Origin: an uncultured delta proteobacterium
GTDB taxonomy: Bacteria > Desulfobacterota > Desulfovibrionia > Desulfovibrionales > Desulfovibrionaceae
Direction of reading: 5' to 3'
NCBI GenBank assembly: GCA_903843965.1
Contig: CAIMRY010000017.1
Span: 124,001-188,000 of the forward strand
Length of the DNA: 64,000 nucleotides
Positions 4,121 through 46,694 of this stretch are shown in pieces. The notes below the pieces were generated by a model. That model saw only the letters and a program-made list of their open reading frames with translations. It ran no database searches and had not been told where the DNA came from. A program made the position numbers and the translations under genes. How positions within the stretch are numbered: the stretch's first letter is position 1; each line of letters begins with the position of its first letter.

Positions 4121-5653
4121 TCAGCCCTTTTTGCGCGGCGCGGCGGGCTTTCCGGGCTTGCTCCCAGGCTTGCCGCCGGGCCCCACTCCCGCCTTCCCCC
4201 CGGGTTTTGACGGCGAATCGACCCAGTGCTTCTTGCTGGCGGCGGTCTTGGCGTCCATGGCTTGGCGCGACTTGCCCAGCCTGGGCGTGCGGGTCTTGAG
4301 CACGCGTTCCGGCTCCTTCTTCTCGTGGCTGGAGCGGAACACGGCCGAGAGCGGGGCCATGCGGATGCCCAGCAGCTTGCGCAGCTGGCTTTCCAGGTAG
4401 CGCGCGTAGGCGGGCTTGACCAGCTCGGCGTCGTTGACGAAGAAGACGAAGGTCGGCGGATCCTCGTCGGCCTGGGTCATGTAGTAGAACTTGGCCCGGC
4501 GGCGGTTGATGACCGGGGGCATGTGCCGGGTGGTGGCCTCGGTCATGGCCCGGTTGAGCGCCCCGGTGCCGATGCGGATGGTGCACTCGGCGCGGATGTC
4601 CTCGGCCAGGGTGAGCACCTTTTGCAGGCCCAGTCCGGTCAGGGCCGAGACGTACAGCGTGGGCACATACGGCGCGATGCGCAGGGCCTCCTCGTAGGTC
4701 TCGCGCAGGGCCTTCAGGTGCTGCTTGGGCACCAGGTCGATCTTGTTCACGGCCACGAAGAACGGCGTGCGCTCACTGGCCAGGTAGTCGATGAGCCGCT
4801 TGTCCTGGCGCGACAGGCCTTCCAGGGCGTCGAGCACCAGGATGGTCACGTCGGCGCGTTTGCTGCTGGCCAGGGCCCGGTACACGGACATCTTCTCCAG
4901 CGAGTCGTGGATGTTGGCCTTGCGGCGCACGCCCGCAGTGTCCACGAAGACATAGCGCTTGCCGCCGATGTCGTAGGTGATCTGCACGGAGTCGCGCGTG
5001 GTTCCGGCCACGTCGCTGACAATTTGCCTGCCCTGGCCCACGAGCGCGTTGACCATGGACGACTTGCCCGCGTTGGGCCGGCCCAGCATGCAGATCTTGA
5101 GCCCGCGTTCGGGCGCGTCCGGGTCTTCCGGCCCCTGCGCGATGAGCGGCCGGGCCAGCTCGGCGATGCGCGCGCGCAGGGTGTTCAGCCCGAAGCCGTG
5201 GGCTGCGGAGACCGGCGCTATCTCCAGGCCCAGGGCGTGGAAGTCCGTGGTGGCCTTGGCCTCCTGCTCGGGCCCGTCGATCTTGTTGACCACCAGCAGG
5301 ATGGGCTTGCCAGCGGCGCGCACGAGTTCGCTCACGGATTCGTCCAGGCCGGTGATGCCCTCGCGCCCGTCGACCACGAACAGCAGGATGTCGGCCTCCT
5401 CCATGGCCTCGGCCGCCTGCTCGAAGACGCTCCGGTCGATGCCGTCGTTGTCCTCTAAGGCGGCATCCGGCAGCATGCCGCCGGTGTCGACCACGGCCAC
5501 GCGCACCTCGTCGTCGACCATCTCGCCGTAGATGCGGTCGCGGGTCACGCCGGGCATGTCGTGGGTGATGGCTTTATTTTTGCGGATCAGGCGGTTGAAC
5601 AGGCTGCTTTTGCCAACGTTGGGGCGGCCTAAAAGAGCGATGATTGGGAGCAT
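4121..5653 (-). CDS. der: Ribosome biogenesis GTPase Der (EngA)
   Basis: Der is a double-GTPase protein needed for 50S subunit maturation. This 510-residue copy has GTPase domain 1 (GRPNVGKSS at about residue 9, DTGG, NKID) and domain 2 (GRPNAGKSS at about residue 190, DTAGVRRK, NKIDLVP). The C-terminal KH-like domain follows, with RRAKFYY and FFVND. The last 60 or so residues, after the usual family end, are a lysine/glycine/proline-rich tail (GPGGKPGSKPGK); this is longer than in E. coli Der (490) and is probably disordered and RNA-binding. It follows thi4 by 63 bases on the same strand, and tRNA-Ser lies downstream. Confidence 0.96.
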   Translation of the reverse strand: MLPIIALLGRPNVGKSSLFNRLIRKNKAITHDMPGVTRDRIYGEMVDDEVRVAVVDTGGMLPDAALEDNDGIDRSVFEQAAEAMEEADILLFVVDGREGITGLDESVSELVRAAGKPILLVVNKIDGPEQEAKATTDFHALGLEIAPVSAAHGFGLNTLRARIAELARPLIAQGPEDPDAPERGLKICMLGRPNAGKSSMVNALVGQGRQIVSDVAGTTRDSVQITYDIGGKRYVFVDTAGVRRKANIHDSLEKMSVYRALASSKRADVTILVLDALEGLSRQDKRLIDYLASERTPFFVAVNKIDLVPKQHLKALRETYEEALRIAPYVPTLYVSALTGLGLQKVLTLAEDIRAECTIRIGTGALNRAMTEATTRHMPPVINRRRAKFYYMTQADEDPPTFVFFVNDAELVKPAYARYLESQLRKLLGIRMAPLSAVFRSSHEKKEPERVLKTRTPRLGKSRQAMDAKTAASKKHWVDSPSKPGGKAGVGPGGKPGSKPGKPAAPRKKG

Positions 5654-23825: not shown

Positions 23826-24608
23826 CTAGCGCTTCACGTTGATAGCGGTCTGGAGCATGGTGTCTGCGGTGGTCAGGGCCTTGGAGTTCACTTCATAGGC
23901 GCGCTGGCCGATGATGAGCCCAACCATTTCGTCCACCATCTCCACGTTGGAGCTTTCCAAAAAGCCCTGGGCCAGGGTGCCGAAGTTGGTGTCGCCGGGT
24001 GTGCCCGAGGTGGCCGCGCCGCTTCCGTCAGACTCGGTGTAGAGGTTGCGGCCCTGGGCGGTCAGGCCGGAGGGGTTGGCGAAGTTGTAGATGGTGATGT
24101 CGGTCCCGGCCAGTTCGGTGCCGGCCTTGTCCATGGCCGAGAGGTGGCCCTTCTCGGTGATGACCACGGTGGAGGTGCCCGAGGGCACGGTGAACTCCGG
24201 CTGCAGGGGGTAGCCGTTGGCGTTGACGATGCGGCCGTTGTTGTCGAGCTTGAAGTTGCCCGCGCGGGTGTACACGTCGTTGCCGTTCTGGTTCAGTTTG
24301 AAGAAACCCTGGCCCTCGATGGAGATGTCCAGCTGGTTGCCGGTGTTCTGGAAGGACCCCTGGGAGAAGAACTTGTGCACGGTGACCGGGCGCACGCCCA
24401 TGCCGACCTGGAAGCCCGTGGGCAGGCGGTTGCCGCCCTCATTGAGCGTGCCGGCGATGCTCATGGTCTGGTACATGAGGTCCTCGAACTCGGCGCGGCT
24501 TTTCTTGAAGCCGACGGTGTTCACGTTGGCCAGGTTGTTCGAGAGCACATCGATGTGGGTCTGCTGGGCGATCATGCCGGTGGCGGCGGTCCAAAGCGAA
24601 CGCATCAT
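23826..24608 (-). CDS. flgG: Flagellar distal rod protein FlgG
   Basis: FlgG forms the distal rod. The 260 residues start MMRSLWTAATGM and have the rod/hook signature DVLSNNLANVNTVGFKKSRAEFEDL, the FlgG hallmark GVRPVTVHKFFSQGSFQNTGN and the C-terminal NVEMVDEMVGLIIGQRAYEVNSK. AGGAGG precedes the double ATG (24608/24605). It is the second gene of the flgF operon. Confidence 0.97.
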   Translation of the reverse strand: MMRSLWTAATGMIAQQTHIDVLSNNLANVNTVGFKKSRAEFEDLMYQTMSIAGTLNEGGNRLPTGFQVGMGVRPVTVHKFFSQGSFQNTGNQLDISIEGQGFFKLNQNGNDVYTRAGNFKLDNNGRIVNANGYPLQPEFTVPSGTSTVVITEKGHLSAMDKAGTELAGTDITIYNFANPSGLTAQGRNLYTESDGSGAATSGTPGDTNFGTLAQGFLESSNVEMVDEMVGLIIGQRAYEVNSKALTTADTMLQTAINVKR

Positions 24609-24637: not shown

Positions 24638-25417
24638 CTAGCCAGCCTGGCCGACCTTGTTGATGACGAGGGATTCCATGCCGTCCGTGGTGGTCATGAT
24701 CTTCTGGTTGATTTCAAAGGCCCGCTGGGCCTCCATCATGTTCACCATCTCGCCCACGATCTCCACGTTGGACTTTTCCAGGTAGCCCTGCTGGACCTGC
24801 AGATTATCAGCCGGCGCCTCCGTGGCCTTGCTGCCCTTGCGGATCTGGAACAGGTTCTTGCCGACCTTTTCGATGGACTTGGGGTCGGAGACGTTGACCA
24901 GGTCAAGGGTGCCGACCTGGTTGCCGTCCACGCTGATGACCCCTTTGGCGTCGATGTCTATCTTGTTGTCGCGCGGCAGGGTGATGGCGCTGCCGCCGCC
25001 CAGGACCTCGAAGCCCTGCTCGGTGATGAGCCGGCCATCAGAGGAAAGGGTGAAGCTGCCGTTTCTGGTCATGAAGTCGCCCGTGGGGGTGCGCACCTTG
25101 AAGAACCCATCGCCCACCAGGGCGATGTCCAGGGAATTCCCCGTGGGCTGCATGCTGCCCTGGGACATGTCGGAAAACTGGCCGCTCATCCTGGTGCGCG
25201 CCTCGATGTAGGGCTTGGGAAAGATGTTTTCGGCGCGCACGTAGGGCTTGTTGTCGACCAGATAGTCGTGGGCGAAGCGCTGGAACGTATCCTGAAAGGC
25301 GTACGAGTCCTTCTTGTAGCCGTTGGTGCTCGCATTCGCCAGATTATTGGCGATGACGTCGAGCCGGTGCTCGTTGGTCATGGCTCCAAAAAGAGCGCTG
25401 CTCATGCTTTCGCGCAT
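24638..25417 (-). CDS. flgF: Flagellar proximal rod protein FlgF
   Basis: FlgF is a proximal rod component. The 259-residue protein has DVIANNLANASTNGYKKDSYAFQDT near the N-terminus, the central SLDIALVGDGFFKVRTPTGDFMTRNG, and the C-terminal NVEIVGEMVNMMEAQRAFEINQK. The start at 25417 is set by AGGAGG five bases upstream; the ATG immediately before it is also possible. It is the first gene of the operon behind the sigma-54 promoter at 25444-25460. Confidence 0.95.
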   Translation of the reverse strand: MRESMSSALFGAMTNEHRLDVIANNLANASTNGYKKDSYAFQDTFQRFAHDYLVDNKPYVRAENIFPKPYIEARTRMSGQFSDMSQGSMQPTGNSLDIALVGDGFFKVRTPTGDFMTRNGSFTLSSDGRLITEQGFEVLGGGSAITLPRDNKIDIDAKGVISVDGNQVGTLDLVNVSDPKSIEKVGKNLFQIRKGSKATEAPADNLQVQQGYLEKSNVEIVGEMVNMMEAQRAFEINQKIMTTTDGMESLVINKVGQAG

Positions 25418-41484: not shown

Positions 41485-43752
41485 ATGAGCATAAATTTTG
41501 AGCGCGAGCTGAACCCGGCCCAGCTGGAGGCTGTGATGCACGTGCACGGCCCCATGCTGTGCATCGCGGGCGCGGGCAGCGGGAAAACGCGCACCATCGT
41601 CTACCGGCTGGCCCGGCTGGCTCAGGAGCACGTCTCGCCGGAAAACATCCTGCTGCTGACCTTCACCCGGCGCGCCTCCCTGGAGATGCTGCACCGGGCC
41701 GGGAGCATCATGGGCCGCCCGCTCACCGGGGCCAGCGGCGGCACCTTCCACTCCTTCGCCTACGGCGTGCTGCGCCGCCACGCCCTGGAGGCCGGGTATC
41801 CCCAGGGCCTGACGCTGATGGACCGGGGCGACTGCGAGGATCTTCTCGGCGAACTCAAAGCCCACCTGGACCTGGGCCGGGGCGACCGCTCCTATCCCAA
41901 GCGCGCCACCCTGGCCGACACCATCACCAAGTCCCGCAACAAGGAGCTTTCCATCGCGGCCATCCTGGACCGCGAGGCCTACCACCTGCTGCCCTACCAG
42001 GCGGACATCGAGCGCCTGGCCGGGGAATACGAAAAGGCCAAGCGCAGCCAGGGGCTCATGGACTACGACGACCTGCTCTTCGGCCTGGAGAATCTCCTGG
42101 TGGCGCACCCGGAGATCAAGGACTCCTTACGCCGCCGCTATCCCTTTGTCATGGTCGACGAGTACCAGGACACCAACCTGGTGCAGGCCCGGCTGGTGCG
42201 CCTGCTGGCTGGCCGCAGCGGCAACGTCATGGCCGTGGGCGACGACGCCCAGTCCATCTACGCCTTTCGCGGGGCCGTTGTGGCCAACATTCTGGAGTTC
42301 CCGCAGATCTTCAAGGACGTCAAACTCATCCGCCTGGAGAAGAACTACCGCTCGGTGCAGCCCATCCTCGACCTGACCAACTGCGTGCTCTCCGGCGCGG
42401 CGCACAAGTTCGACAAGCATCTCTACGCCGCCCGCACCGGTGGGACGCGGCCGCGCATCATCCAGACCCACAGCGACCAGTCCCAGGCCGCCCAGGCCGT
42501 CAGCCTCATCGCGGACATGGCCGGCCGCCACCCCCTGCACGAGATCGCCGTGCTCTTCCGCGCCGGGTACCAGTCCTATTCCCTGGAAGTGGCGCTGACC
42601 CGCGCTGGCCTGCCCTATCGCAAGTACGGCGGGGTGCGCTTCCACGAGGCCGCGCACATCAAGGACGTCTTGTGCTACCTGCGCCTGGCCGCCAATGGCG
42701 CGGACATGCTGGCCTGGCAGCGCGTGCTGGGCCTGCTCAAGGGCGTGGGCGGCAAGACCGCGTCCAAGATTGCGCAGGCCGTGGTGGCGGGCGAGGCCAA
42801 GGCCCTGGAGGCGCTGGCCCGGCGGTTCCCGGACCTGCCCGGCCTCTTGGCCGAGCTGGACGCCCTGCGCCGCCTGAACCACGCCCCGGCGGCGGCCCTG
42901 GACCGGGCCATGAGCCACTATGCCCCGCTGCTCATCCAGACCTACCCGGACGACTACCCCAAGCGCCAGGCGGGCCTGGAGCAGCTGGCCCAGATTGCGG
43001 TGAACTACCAGACCATCGAGGAGTTCCTGGCCGACCTGTGCCTGGACGGCTCGCCCTCGGAGGACGAGGACGCGTCGAACGCGGTGGTGCTCTCCACCGT
43101 ACACTCGGCCAAGGGCCTGGAGTGGCGCGCGGTGATCATCATCGACCTGGTGGAGGAGCGCTTCCCGTCCAAAAAGGCCATGCAGCGCCAGGAGGACATG
43201 GAGGAGGAGCGCAGGCTGATGTACGTGGCCTGCACCCGGGCCAAGGATGAGCTGGCGCTTTTGGTGCCCGGCACCCTGTACAACCGCTTCAACAACTGCC
43301 GCGAACCGGCCCAGCCCAGCCCCTTTGTGCAGGAGCTGCCGGATTCCGTCGCTGAGCGTCTGGTGGAGACCTTCACCGGCGGGCTGCGCCGCAGGGACGA
43401 GCGCGTGCTCTCGGTGCTGGAATCCGGGGCCGGAGACAGCGCCGGAGACAGGTTCATCGACAGGTCCGACGAGCGCCTGGCGCCGGTGGTGCTGCCGGTT
43501 CCGCCCCAGCGCCCGGCCTACGCGCCCGGAGCGCGGCCCATCAGCGCGGCGGCCGCCCCGCACACGGCCTATGCCGCCGCACCCGCGCCGAAATCGGCCA
43601 TGGATGGCGCGACCACCAAGCTCGGCCTATGCGAGCACAAGATCTTCGGGCAGGGGAAAATCATCGCCGAGATTCCGCCGGACAAGTTCCGCGTGAACTT
43701 TCCCGGCTTCGGGCTCAAGGTCATCGTCAAGACCTATTTGAAGCTGCTGTAG
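41485..43752 (+). CDS. UvrD/PcrA-type ATP-dependent DNA helicase
   Basis: This superfamily 1A 3'-5' helicase has 755 residues. The motifs in order are QLEAVMHVHGPMLCIAGAGSGKTR (Q motif and Walker A split over residues 13-36), LTFTRRAS, FVMVDEYQDTN, VMAVGDDAQSIYAFRGA, LEKNYRS, VVLSTVHSAKGLEW and RLMYVACTRAKDEL. The end, HKIFGQGKIIAEIPPDKFRVNF, is the Tudor-like RNA-polymerase-binding tail of PcrA/UvrD. It probably acts in repair and transcription-replication conflict. Whether it is the main UvrD or a paralogue cannot be told. A perfect terminator follows. Confidence 0.93.
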   Translation: MSINFERELNPAQLEAVMHVHGPMLCIAGAGSGKTRTIVYRLARLAQEHVSPENILLLTFTRRASLEMLHRAGSIMGRPLTGASGGTFHSFAYGVLRRHALEAGYPQGLTLMDRGDCEDLLGELKAHLDLGRGDRSYPKRATLADTITKSRNKELSIAAILDREAYHLLPYQADIERLAGEYEKAKRSQGLMDYDDLLFGLENLLVAHPEIKDSLRRRYPFVMVDEYQDTNLVQARLVRLLAGRSGNVMAVGDDAQSIYAFRGAVVANILEFPQIFKDVKLIRLEKNYRSVQPILDLTNCVLSGAAHKFDKHLYAARTGGTRPRIIQTHSDQSQAAQAVSLIADMAGRHPLHEIAVLFRAGYQSYSLEVALTRAGLPYRKYGGVRFHEAAHIKDVLCYLRLAANGADMLAWQRVLGLLKGVGGKTASKIAQAVVAGEAKALEALARRFPDLPGLLAELDALRRLNHAPAAALDRAMSHYAPLLIQTYPDDYPKRQAGLEQLAQIAVNYQTIEEFLADLCLDGSPSEDEDASNAVVLSTVHSAKGLEWRAVIIIDLVEERFPSKKAMQRQEDMEEERRLMYVACTRAKDELALLVPGTLYNRFNNCREPAQPSPFVQELPDSVAERLVETFTGGLRRRDERVLSVLESGAGDSAGDRFIDRSDERLAPVVLPVPPQRPAYAPGARPISAAAAPHTAYAAAPAPKSAMDGATTKLGLCEHKIFGQGKIIAEIPPDKFRVNFPGFGLKVIVKTYLKLL

Positions 43753-43780
43753 CCCGCTCAAGGCGGGTCGCCGCACACGC

Positions 43781-43815
43781 AAAAGCCAGCGGGTTCGCCC
43801 GCTGGCTTTTCTTTT
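43781..43815 (+). terminator. Terminator of the helicase gene
   Basis: A perfect 13-bp stem, AAAAGCCAGCGGG/CCCGCTGGCTTTT, with TTCG tetraloop, followed by CTTTT, lies 28 bases after the stop. A degenerate copy exists at 44613-44646. Confidence 0.93.
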
Positions 43816-43908
43816 GGCTCTTGATCTACCGCGGCGCGGGCTAACCTTACTTGGCTGCGCCCTCCGTTGTGGACGACGCAGGCGCTACGCGCGGCGCTGG
43901 CGTATCAT

Positions 43909-44166
43909 TCAATAGTGGTACCGGCATTGCAGAATGACAAGCCGCTCGCCATCCACCAGATACACCAGCCGGTGTTCGGCGTTGATGCGGCGGGACCACT
44001 TGCCCGCCAGGTCGAACCGTAGCGCCTCGGGCTTGCCCAGGCCTGCAAACGGCGTGCGCAAGGCCTCCTGGACCAGCGTGTTGATTTTCCGCACCATGGC
44101 CTTGTCATGGGCCTGCCAGTAGAGGTAGTCCTCCCAGGCGTTGGGGGTCCAGGCCAGGAGCTTCAC
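43909..44166 (-). CDS. yoeB: YoeB family toxin (ribosome-dependent mRNA interferase)
   Basis: YoeB cleaves mRNA in the ribosomal A site. The 85-residue protein aligns along its length with E. coli YoeB (84): AWEDYLYWQAHDKAMVRKIN, then FAGLGKPEALRFDLAGKWSRRI and EHRLVYLVDG, ending CRYHY. The catalytic Glu (GKPEAL), Arg (WSRRI) and terminal His-Tyr are all kept. It starts with GTG, overlapping the antitoxin stop (GTGA), so toxin synthesis depends on antitoxin translation. Confidence 0.94.
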   Translation of the reverse strand: MKLLAWTPNAWEDYLYWQAHDKAMVRKINTLVQEALRTPFAGLGKPEALRFDLAGKWSRRINAEHRLVYLVDGERLVILQCRYHY

Positions 44167-44465
44167 GGCTTTGTCAATGGCACCGTCAATTGCACCGGCA
44201 ATGGCTCCGGCAATGGCTCCGGCAGGGGGCGGGCCACGGCCTGCCCCGACTCGGCCTGGCTGATGCTCTCCCGCAGGCGCGCGGCGTTGGCCGGGCTGCG
44301 CAGCAGATAGGCCGTCTCCTCGATGGCGCCATAGTCCTCCAGGCTCATCATGACCACGGGCCGGGCGTTGCGCCGGGTCACGATGATGGGCTCGTGGCTG
44401 TCGCACACGCGCTCCATGGTCTCGACAAGCTTCTTGCGGGCGGCGGAATAGGTGATGGCGTCCAT
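44163..44465 (-). CDS. yefM: YefM/Phd family antitoxin with repeat-derived C-terminal extension
   Basis: YefM neutralises YoeB and represses the operon. Residues 1-80 are the family core: MDAITYSAARKKLVETMERV, the DNA-binding and dimer part with EPIIVTRRNARPVVMMSLEDY, then the YoeB-wrapping helix TAYLLRSPANAARLRESI. The final 20 residues, proline/leucine-rich (PLPEPLPEPLP), come from four 12-bp repeats at 44175-44222 and are not part of the normal family. AGGAGG precedes the ATG. Total length is 100 residues against 83-92 in relatives. Confidence 0.92.
   Translation of the reverse strand: MDAITYSAARKKLVETMERVCDSHEPIIVTRRNARPVVMMSLEDYGAIEETAYLLRSPANAARLRESISQAESGQAVARPLPEPLPEPLPVQLTVPLTKP
44175..44222. 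repeat. 12-bp in-frame tandem repeat, 4 copies (yefM 3' end)
   Basis: Units begin at 44175, 44187, 44199 and 44211; the last two are identical (CAATGGCTCCGG) and the first two differ by 1-3 bases. They encode the proline-leucine tail of the antitoxin. Confidence 0.92.
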
Positions 44466-44486
44466 GGCGGGCCTCCTTTCTCAGCC

Positions 44487-44514
44487 GACTTGTACCAGTA
44501 GTCGTACACAAGTC
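44487..44514 (-). promoter_or_regulatory. Inverted-repeat operator of the yefM-yoeB operon
   Basis: GACTTGT (44487-44493) and ACAAGTC (44508-44514) form an exact inverted repeat about 22 bases upstream of the yefM ATG. Each arm carries a near-copy of TGTACA (TTGTACC and CGTACAC), the core bound by E. coli YefM. Autoregulation is inferred from this. Confidence 0.65.
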
Positions 44515-44534
44515 AAGCGGAGCGGAAGCAGAGG

Positions 44535-44646
44535 TCCGGCTCTGGAGTCAAGGTCAGCGTCAAGACGTGCCTGAAGCTGCTGTAACCAGGGCGTAGCGGG
44601 CAGCATCCACTCAGCCAGCCGGGCAACCCGCTGGCTTTTCTTTTGG
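44535..44646 (+). pseudogene. Duplicated remnant of the helicase gene 3' end and terminator
   Basis: Positions 44535-44585 encode SGSGVKVSVKTCLKLL-stop, matching the helicase ending GFGLKVIVKTYLKLL-stop codon for codon. Downstream, 44613-44646 is a degenerate copy of the helicase terminator, and CTGGCTTTTCTTTTGGCTCT is identical to the sequence at 43802-43821. No upstream helicase sequence accompanies the copy. The toxin-antitoxin pair lies between the true end and this remnant. Confidence 0.8.
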
Positions 44647-44734
44647 CTCTTGGTCCGCAGGTGCGCGGGCTCACCGGCGCAAGACCGTCAGGAGGCCGCC
44701 GGGCTGAAACGACCGGCCCTGGCCTGTGCGCGCC

Positions 44735-46519
44735 CTAGCCCTTGGCCGGGGCGGCGTCGCCTGCCGGTGCGGTTGTCGGAGCGCCTGCCGGTGCTGGCGG
44801 CGGGCCGCCCGGCATGGGCACCTCGTCGCGCTGCTCGGGCTTCAGGTGCGCCTCGGCGTAGTCCTTGTACACCCCGCTTTCAAGGAACAGCCCGAACACG
44901 TCCGCGTCCACGTGCTTGTCCTTGACCATGAAGCCCAGAATCTTCACGGCCTGGGACAGCTTCATGGGCTGCTTGTAGGGCCGGTCCGCAGCGGTGAGCG
45001 CCTCGAACACGTCGGCCACGGCCAGGATGCGCGCCTGCAGCGACAGGGCGTCCCCGCCGATGTGGTTGGGGTAGCCGGTGCCGTCAAGCTTTTCGTGGTG
45101 GCTGCCGGCAAATTCCGGGATGCGCGACAGGCGCTTGGGAAAGGGCAGGCGTCCCAGCATGTCCATGGTGACCACGGTGTGGTCTTCGATGATCTTGCGC
45201 TCGGCATCGTTGAGGGAGCCCTTGCGGATGCAGAGGTTCATGACCTCGTTCTCGGAGAGCCAGGGCTTCTGCTCACCGCCGTCGTCGTATGTGCGCGCGG
45301 CGATGTCCTTGACCCGGGTGATGCGCTCGTCGCTCATGAATTCGCCGGGCTTGTTGCAGGACTCGATGAACGCGAGGTCCTCCTCCAGGTCTTGGCGGCG
45401 CTTCTCCATCTCCTCGGTCACGGCGAACATCTCCGTGCGCGCGGCCCCGCGCCCGGCCATCTCCAGCAGCTTCTCCAAAAGCTCGGCCTGCAGGGCCTTG
45501 CCGATGAACTTGAAGCGCGTGCGGATGAAGTCGATGCGGTCGACAATGGCCTCCAGCTTGGTGGACTTGTCCACCACGTGCACCGGCGTGGTGATCTTCC
45601 CCACGTCGTGCATCCAGGCCGCCAGCTTCAGCTCCTCCATCTCGTCGACGCTGAAGTGCACGCCGGCATACGGCCCGCTGTCCTGGGCGTTGATGGTCTC
45701 GGCGATGCGCATGGTCAGGTCCACCACGCGGTCGATGTGGCCCTTGGTGTAGGGGCTCTTGGCGTCGATGGCGGCGGCGATGGACTGCATGAAGGAGTAC
45801 AACAGGGCCTTGAGCCCGTTGATGAGCTGGGTGTTGGTCAGGGCCACGGCGGCCTGGGAGGCCAGGGAGCGCACGGCCTCCAGCCGCTCCTGGGAAAAGC
45901 CCACCACCTGTCCGGTGTCCTTGTCCTTGGCGTTCAAGAGCTGCAGCACGCCGATGATCTCGTGCTCGTGGTTCTCCATGGGCATGACCAGCATGGACTG
46001 GGAGCGGTAGCCCGTGGACTTGTCGTAGCCGCGCGTGCCGGTGAAGTCGAAGCCCTCCGCGCAGTAGACGTCGTCGATGTTGACGTACTCGCGGGTCAGG
46101 GCCACGTGGGAGGAGACGTTGGCGTGGTTGGGCTCGCCGCCCTCCTTGTACAGCGACACCGGGGGCAGGGTCACGGGATTGCCGCTGGTGCCGCCCAGGC
46201 GCACGTTCATGGTGTCGTTCTGGAGCACCACGAACTCCAGTTTTTTGCCCGTGGGGTCCACGATGTACAGGGTGCCCGCATCGGCATAGGTGAGGTTGCG
46301 CGCCAGCTCCACGATCATCTCCAGGAGCCGGTTGCGGTCCTGCTCGGCCGAGAGGGCCAGGCCGATCTCCGAAAGCCGGTGCATCTGCCGGTTCAGCCGG
46401 TTGACCTGCTCGCGCAGATCCTCCACCGTGGCCGTCTCCAGCCCCGGCGCTGGCCCGGCGCACGCGCTCGGCGAACCGTTCGGCTCATCAATGATCTCAT
46501 CAATGGGCTCATCAATCAT
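44735..46519 (-). CDS. GAF-HD-GYP protein (probable cyclic di-GMP phosphodiesterase)
   Basis: This cytosolic protein has 594 residues. After a short repeat-encoded start (MIDEPIDEIIDEP) there is a helical segment, then a GAF domain (about residues 50-215; ADAGTLYIVDPTGKKLEF and GVLQLLNAKDKDTGQVVGF). The HD-GYP domain follows: GHIDRV and AAWMHDVGKITTP carry the HD residues, and HHEKLDGTGYP carries the GYP motif. A helical insertion of about 130 residues separates these two parts. HD-GYP domains hydrolyse cyclic di-GMP; the GAF ligand is unknown. The tail is proline/alanine-rich. The ATG at 46519 follows GGGGTG. It is divergent from cdsA. Confidence 0.9.
   Translation of the reverse strand: MIDEPIDEIIDEPNGSPSACAGPAPGLETATVEDLREQVNRLNRQMHRLSEIGLALSAEQDRNRLLEMIVELARNLTYADAGTLYIVDPTGKKLEFVVLQNDTMNVRLGGTSGNPVTLPPVSLYKEGGEPNHANVSSHVALTREYVNIDDVYCAEGFDFTGTRGYDKSTGYRSQSMLVMPMENHEHEIIGVLQLLNAKDKDTGQVVGFSQERLEAVRSLASQAAVALTNTQLINGLKALLYSFMQSIAAAIDAKSPYTKGHIDRVVDLTMRIAETINAQDSGPYAGVHFSVDEMEELKLAAWMHDVGKITTPVHVVDKSTKLEAIVDRIDFIRTRFKFIGKALQAELLEKLLEMAGRGAARTEMFAVTEEMEKRRQDLEEDLAFIESCNKPGEFMSDERITRVKDIAARTYDDGGEQKPWLSENEVMNLCIRKGSLNDAERKIIEDHTVVTMDMLGRLPFPKRLSRIPEFAGSHHEKLDGTGYPNHIGGDALSLQARILAVADVFEALTAADRPYKQPMKLSQAVKILGFMVKDKHVDADVFGLFLESGVYKDYAEAHLKPEQRDEVPMPGGPPPAPAGAPTTAPAGDAAPAKG
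46484..46517. repeat. 12-bp in-frame tandem repeat, 3 copies (HD-GYP gene 5' end)
   Basis: CTCATCAATG or CTCATCAATC occurs at 46484, 46496 and 46508, exact 12-base spacing. On the coding strand this gives the IDEP/IDEI repeats at residues 2-13. Confidence 0.9.
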
Positions 46520-46694
46520 GCGCACCCCACAAAAACGTCTGCTTGGCGGTAAAGGTCACGAAGGTTCGCACCCACATATACGTACCACACCAACGTGGCA
46601 GAAGGAAAGAGGAAAGCCCCAGGTTGCCCGCAGCAACAGAATCGCGTACACAGGGCTGGCGCGACCGGGCGCTTATCCCCTACCAGGAGTTTTC

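Follow-up and report, generated by a model that had tools for sequence, protein, structure and literature searches.

A YefM-YoeB module between two copies of a helicase gene end in Desulfovibrionales, probably duplicated when the module entered

In a 64,000-nucleotide stretch of DNA from an uncultured delta proteobacterium of the Desulfovibrionaceae (GenBank assembly GCA_903843965.1, contig CAIMRY010000017.1, positions 124,001 to 188,000; hereafter the window), a YefM-YoeB toxin-antitoxin operon lies between a UvrD/PcrA-type helicase gene and a convergent HD-GYP-type gene, and is bracketed by two copies of the helicase 3' end. We consider it likely that entry of the module into the helicase/HD-GYP junction duplicated the helicase gene end, in an ancestor common to the window genome and the metagenome-assembled genome (MAG) Desulfovibrionales bacterium GWA2_65_9. 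Four observations carry this reading: the repeat, empty sites in relatives, a second genome with the same right junction, and the like divergence of the module and its flanks; from these we infer that duplication and insertion would have been a single event that happened once. The repeat and the insertion are solid.

Results

A helicase gene end repeated on either side of a toxin-antitoxin module

The end of the helicase gene together with its terminator (43703-43846) is repeated at 44536-44675, with 24.1% of 141 compared columns different and two gaps of 1 and 3 nt. When the 64-kb window was compared with itself (plus strand with the low-complexity filter on; matches of at least 40 nt whose copies are separated by more than 100 bp and start no more than 5 kb apart; E≤0.001), this pair was the strongest direct repeat within 5 kb (E 1.5e-17), and a repeat scan of 43400-44900 returned it as 43703-43767/44536-44600 (75%) and 43784-43846/44613-44675 (81%). 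At E≤0.001, a 201-bp tail query had exactly two matches in the genome, namely the two tail copies. Of the helicase gene, copy 2 contains no more than the final ~50 nt; its left edge is abrupt, with no helicase sequence leftward, and the hairpin at that edge is unremarkable (z -0.29). The initial annotation, made from the letters of the window, had claimed that the last helicase codons and stop recur in diverged form at 44535-44585 as SGSGVKVSVKTCLKLL-stop, which the sequence and the repeat alignment bear out. Its claim that the terminator recurs also stands, within the aligned block; the identical stretch, given as a 20-mer, is actually 26 nt long (CCCGCTGGCTTTTCTTTTGGCTCTTG, the longest exact run common to both copies, inside the terminator). 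The extent proposed for the locus, 43702-44660, needs correction at its right end, since the block runs ~94 nt past the helicase stop and copy 2 ends near 44675. The same self-comparison also returned another, weaker pair, 23856-23969 and 24677-24790 (72%, ~114 nt, 821 bp apart).

Between the copies there is, as first described, a complete toxin-antitoxin operon on the opposite strand: both genes are complete and Pfam-matched (PF02604 and PF06769, above the curated cut-offs), and both proteins cover nearly the whole of their family profiles. Judged by these matches, the pair is a member of the YefM-YoeB type II family, with toxicity and neutralisation only predicted; like other members, it has the antitoxin gene first and a 4-nt overlap between the genes. 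Unlike them, the window YefM has a short, repeat-rich C-terminal extension of the PEPLPEPLP type, encoded by four 12-nt tandem units (44173-44220), and its match to the YefM of GWA2_65_9 stops at residue 84 of 100. A putative operator lies 5' of yefM, the core of YefM operators being TGTACA. Only yefM and yoeB are recognisable between the window tails, where we found no transposase or integrase. The similarity of the insert's DNA to modules in outside relatives spans the two genes and extends no more than a few tens of nucleotides beyond them, and among the other fetched YefM-YoeB loci none matched the helicase tail below E 0.4, as a donor locus might.

The two tails differ in how they have evolved. 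First tails are constrained as coding sequence, with PGFGLKVIVK present in all 14 seen, and tail 2 has amino-acid substitutions that none of the 14 first copies shows, which argues that copy 1 is the helicase's functional 3' end and that copy 2 is free of selection and decaying. The predicted terminators differ as well. Terminator 1 is strong on the plus strand (-23.7 kcal/mol, z -4.67) and on the minus strand (-25.1, z -3.94), and could end both the helicase and the toxin-antitoxin transcripts; terminator 2 is weaker (-16.3, z -2.3) and does not face the HD-GYP gene, because its T run is on the plus strand only. The earlier suggestion that read-through is blocked from either side is thus only half borne out, by the nearly symmetric terminator 1 rather than by terminator 2. 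A scan for terminator patterns found 2, against 0.9 expected in shuffles.

Empty sites and a second carrier in the same genus

The helicase was matched in all 59 genomes searched, a few of the matches being weak or partial, and 14 loci of the same genus were fetched. Together with the window these gave 14 complete junctions (the window and 13 relatives), the locus of G007 being cut by a contig end. The gap between the helicase and HD-GYP genes, measured between alignment ends and accurate to ~12 nt, is 5-176 bp in seven of the 14 and 773-2378 bp in the other seven. Each of the seven short-gap loci has one tail and neither YoeB nor YefM at the locus, and these are the empty sites for which the initial annotation had suggested looking. 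One of them, G011, has an HD-GYP gene reduced to fragments, with three separate matches (L118:5380-5919).

The same module occurs at the same junction, again between two tails, in GWA2_65_9 (YoeB 89% and YefM 82% identical to the window). Our locus from G003 (L125 = L063) is identical in sequence to this MAG (MGTN01000181.1); in its contig, 53 consecutive N bases interrupt the helicase upstream of the junction and split it into two matches. The distance from the yefM start to tail 2 is 70-71 bp in both carriers, and tail 2 of GWA2_65_9 abuts the end of the HD-GYP gene, as do the single tails in some empty sites. Together, the seven empty sites and this second carrier strengthen the original proposal of a gene-end duplication linked to entry of the module.

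Two other explanations fall away on these data. That the module replaced a tandem helicase copy, which the initial annotation had offered as its second option, is rejected: copy 2 comprises only ~50 nt of the gene with its abrupt left edge, and there is a single helicase gene in each of the 14 fetched genus loci (split by the N run in G003 and cut by the contig end in G007). An assembly artefact is likewise rejected, the separately assembled MAG having the same arrangement.

The features at the junction are listed in Table 1. Of the 14 fetched genus loci, 13 have the HD-GYP gene next to the helicase (in fragments in G011) and the other, G007, ends inside the helicase; the order helicase, HD-GYP gene, CdsA, Dxr, RseP is conserved wherever the genus locus is long enough. 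In G022, a 1.47-kb direct duplication (89% identical) lies near the helicase (L133:3642-6891).

Table 1. Features at the helicase/HD-GYP junction, in window positions
Feature	Position	Strand	Evidence
UvrD/PcrA-type helicase gene, 755 aa, complete with working 3' end	41485..43752	+	PF00580 E 1.9e-68, PF13361 E 1.8e-52
Tail copy 1: last 51 nt of helicase gene, terminator and ~36 nt further	43702..43846	+	Direct repeat with 44535-44675
Terminator 1: nearly symmetric hairpin with a 13-bp stem, preceded by an A run and followed by a T run	43781..43810	+	
YoeB toxin, 85 aa, GTG start overlapping the yefM stop	43909..44166	-	PF06769 E 4.1e-38; PHROG RelE-like toxin
YefM antitoxin, 100 aa	44163..44465	-	PF02604 E 1.4e-24
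Operator-like site 5' of yefM, TTGTAC...GTACAC	44490..44509		Sequence; similar sequence in GWA2_65_9
Tail copy 2: decayed 51-nt helicase 3' end (SGSGVKVSVKTCLKLL-stop) and weaker terminator	44535..44675	+	Matched by the first-tail profile (model positions 26-74, E 7.7e-8)
GAF / HD-domain (HD-GYP type) gene, convergent with helicase; right border of insertion site	44735..46525	-	PF13487, PF01590

Age of the insertion

Corrected divergence at 4-fold sites between the window and GWA2_65_9 amounts to 0.249 across 1601 sites of seven flanking genes and to 0.28 across the 77 sites of the module. Since the module has diverged roughly as much as its flanks, the insertion probably dates from about the time at which the two lineages separated, and the simplest reading is one insertion before that separation. 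Over the flanking genes, the window is 0.264 from the empty-site genome G002 and 0.263 from the empty-site genome G005. In the scenario that we favour, a bare YefM-YoeB module of ~0.6-0.7 kb, without a mobility gene, would have entered the junction in the common ancestor, and its entry would have duplicated no less than the final ~51 nt of the helicase gene and, in the window, a block of ~141 nt that takes in the terminator. The helicase would have retained its complete 3' end as copy 1, and copy 2 would have been left to decay. As to the step itself, one-sided homologous pairing with end joining, or repair of a staggered break, may have produced the duplication, an option to which we would give somewhat less than an even chance; about equal in our ranking, and as tentative, is a recombinase acting in trans on the gene end.

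When a single event is put to the test, the ages agree roughly, and several observations weigh against it. The marker tree has support of only 29-56% around the two module carriers, and 4-fold sites place GWA2_65_9 closer to the empty-site genome G002 (divergence 0.212) than to the window (0.249). With such a tree, the module may later have been lost precisely through the repeats or passed between species, and one of these may even be needed. The divergence between tails 1 and 2 is 0.29 in the window and 0.15 in GWA2_65_9, a rough dating given the 51-141 tail sites available. The terminator is duplicated in the window but found on neither side in GWA2_65_9, and the interval between tail 1 and yoeB has no evident similarity between the two genomes. 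Finally, two relatives, G013 and G008, have two tails without the YefM-YoeB module.

Second tails around other genes

Second tails were sought with a profile of the last ~75 nt of first tails, run over the 15 genus loci (501,806 residues). The profile rests on 13 rows, that of G013 being empty, and the rows of G005, G009, G001 and G008 fell 3-12 nt short of the stop. Ahead of a gap in E-value it recovered 14 first tails and, after them, four second tails, all on the plus strand: GWA2_65_9 (4.5e-10), the window (7.7e-8), G008 (2.1e-4) and G013 (1.7e-3), the next match being at 0.11. All four start at model position 21-26 of 75, that is, ~50 nt before the stop and within 5 nt of each other; two of the four are weak, and those of the window and GWA2_65_9 probably reflect one event. 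A second model, trained on the 14 first tails together with the second tails of the two module carriers, was applied to the whole of the 15 genus genomes. In this search the G013 copy was the next-best match after the training tails (E 7e-4, followed by 0.0019), whereas the G008 copy fell within the noise (E 0.126) and counts by position only. We regard the G013 second tail as convincing by its position and that of G008 as weak.

Between the G013 tails lies a gene for an 83-amino-acid DksA/TraR-like zinc-finger protein (PF01258 E 9e-9, phrog_54 E 5.9e-15), and between those of G008 one for a 312-amino-acid protein without a clear family. Homologues of the latter occur at the same junction in G004 and G010 (61 and 66% identical to that of G008). 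The profile search of the genus loci found no second tail in the inserts of G004, G010 and G014, and since G004 and G010 carry the 312-amino-acid homologue without one, G008 is the weaker case for a separate arrival. Further genes in the junction inserts (L120-L124) encode a GGDEF-domain protein in G014, a phosphorylase-superfamily protein in G004 and CorA in G008.

Relatives that lack the toxin-antitoxin pair and still have both tails had been named at the outset as evidence that would speak against a duplication on entry. G013 and G008 are literally such relatives; they hold other genes between the tails, and codon 11 of the tail points to separate events. The window and GWA2_65_9 each have Thr (ACN) at this codon in both tails, as do G002, G005 and G009 in their first tails; G013 has GAC in the first tail and GGC in the second. 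Separate duplications are favoured because codon 11 follows its own lineage in both copies.

No second tail was present in the 37 usable loci of other genera (38 fetched, 0.7-12 kb downstream), and a family-wide profile scan of 199 genomes, whose stricter filter missed G008, placed a second match no more than 5 kb from a helicase tail in three of them only, G000, G003 and G013. The same scan gave three weak tail matches on one contig of G144, more than 500 kb apart.

Flanking repeats at other YefM-YoeB loci

To place the window among its kind, left and right flanks were compared at 96 distinct YefM-YoeB loci (108 given, of which 9 with short flanks and 3 duplicates were dropped), a score of at least 50 counting as strong. 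Strong flanking repeats were found at seven of the 96, including the window and GWA2_65_9, and in controls at 8 of 917 and 7 of 646 positions (~1%), which overlap and so are not independent. Two of the five further loci resemble duplicated gene pieces, their gene names being our reading of the translations. In Parapedobacter tibetensis, the pair lies between two copies of a 96-bp 3' part of a putative sigma-factor gene (L077:3261-3356 and 4374-4469). In G114, it follows an intact rfbF-like gene, and a broken 5' piece of that gene lies beyond the pair (L057:399-512 and 2086-2194). The repeat at L208 is presumably a dispersed one, and the repeats at L102 and L221 are, as far as inspected, not within any recognisable gene. 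We treat a general enrichment of flanking repeats at YefM-YoeB loci as a lead.

Discussion

One question raised by these loci is whether the helicase gene end is used more than once. The G013 copy, and weakly that of G008, suggests that it is a favoured landing place; the pattern points either to a repeated landing site or, less likely, to an older duplication in which the cargo was swapped. In its most specific form, the idea would be that in this genus the final ~51 nt of the helicase gene form a sequence-specific landing site at which small cassettes without a recombinase arrive, restoring the gene and leaving an orphan tail each time. We think this unlikely; if true, the toxin-antitoxin genes, a DksA/TraR-like regulator and perhaps one more gene would have been captured at one spot without a visible mobile element.

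The strongest competitor to a duplication caused by module entry, which we still judge rather improbable, is that the helicase 3' end is a true bacterial attachment site (attB). Elements bearing its last ~51 nt would integrate by means of a recombinase, and today's loci would be remnants or recombinase-less cassettes lying between attL (gene restored) and attR (orphan tail), with YefM-YoeB, the DksA/TraR-like zinc-finger gene and perhaps the 312-amino-acid gene as cargos. Such a site would account for a left edge of the second tail that agrees within 5 nt across four genomes and three different cargos, and for a gene restored as at other 3'-end attachment sites; the match of the G013 protein to a phage family fits as well. 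On the other hand, no integrase was found among the larger open reading frames of seven inserts (window, G003, G013, G008, G014, G010 and G004), nor any transposase among those examined (more than 60-100 amino acids long outside the window pair), although such an element would be expected to bring a recombinase gene. No other tail-like copy stood out among the 150 candidates scored in each of the 15 genus genomes, the other-genus loci gave no second tail, and viral contigs contained 0 exact pattern matches to the tail. The 312-amino-acid gene, moreover, sits at the junction in G008, G010 and G004, but only in G008 with a second tail, and a weak one.

Less probable again is one early duplication of the tail, after which genes were swapped between the repeats by homologous recombination and empty sites arose by deletion between them. 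This would explain why the left edge is the same in all four genomes and why the repeats flank different genes, and deletion between short direct repeats without a recombinase of its own has been reported for an Escherichia coli island (PMC5426353). It sits poorly with codon 11, by which second copies track their own lineage, a pattern that gene conversion could nevertheless mimic. Chance, or selection for a terminator-like element, we regard as refuted for practical purposes: the longest common run does fall within the terminator, but the similarity spans the coding tail too, and the independent GWA2_65_9 assembly has coding-tail similarity without the terminator.

Duplication of the gene end on entry of the module, the reading that we prefer, has a close counterpart in what is known of restriction-modification genes. 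The original accounts of their insertion with long target duplication are said to be those of Nobusato and colleagues in 2000 and Furuta and colleagues in 2010. Such insertion is described in passages of PMC3874152 (section 7), PMC1643837, PMC3031569 and PMC4978471, the last suggesting a site-specific manner for one Helicobacter pylori case. Section 7 of PMC3874152, a review of 2013, describes how restriction-modification genes move without a mobile element and with long target duplications, and does not there extend this to toxin-antitoxin genes. The window locus shares with these cases an addiction-type cargo, direct target repeats flanking the insert, a target duplication on the order of 100 bp and of variable length, the lack of a linked transposase, integrase or other mobile element, and relatives with a one-copy, insert-free allele (seven of 14). 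It differs in its cargo, a type II toxin-antitoxin pair, in its host, a genus of Desulfovibrionales, and in that the same gene end seems to have been bracketed again around another gene.

Two other systems offer partial parallels. The island SGI1 integrates at the 3' end of trmE (PMC8409611); our locus resembles such islands in the insertion at the 3' end of a protein gene and possibly in reuse of the site, and departs from them in having no integrase, an insert of less than 1 kb and an attachment function that is only putative. The E. coli genomic island H47, which has no recombinase of its own, was excised between short direct repeats, with excision detected by PCR (PMC5426353). It is likewise small, flanked by direct repeats and without its own site-specific recombinase; the present locus, unlike H47, is known from sequence alone, and integration is unexplained for H47 too.

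We found no published case of long target duplication by a bare toxin-antitoxin pair, in a search that left the subscription literature mostly uncovered, so that novelty is unproven; the passages on target duplication in PMC3874152, PMC2654758 and PMC3031569 make no such claim for a toxin-antitoxin pair, and a search for literature on partial duplication of a flanking gene returned nothing. The new points are insert and empty alleles that can be roughly dated, the agreement of a bare toxin-antitoxin pair with the pattern of long target duplication, and a gene end that may have been reused. The spread of bare toxin-antitoxin pairs without a carrying mobile element is poorly explained, and this locus supplies roughly dated insert and empty alleles with which to approach it. 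The possible reuse of one gene end by other cargo, in turn, would make a sequence-specific mechanism testable.

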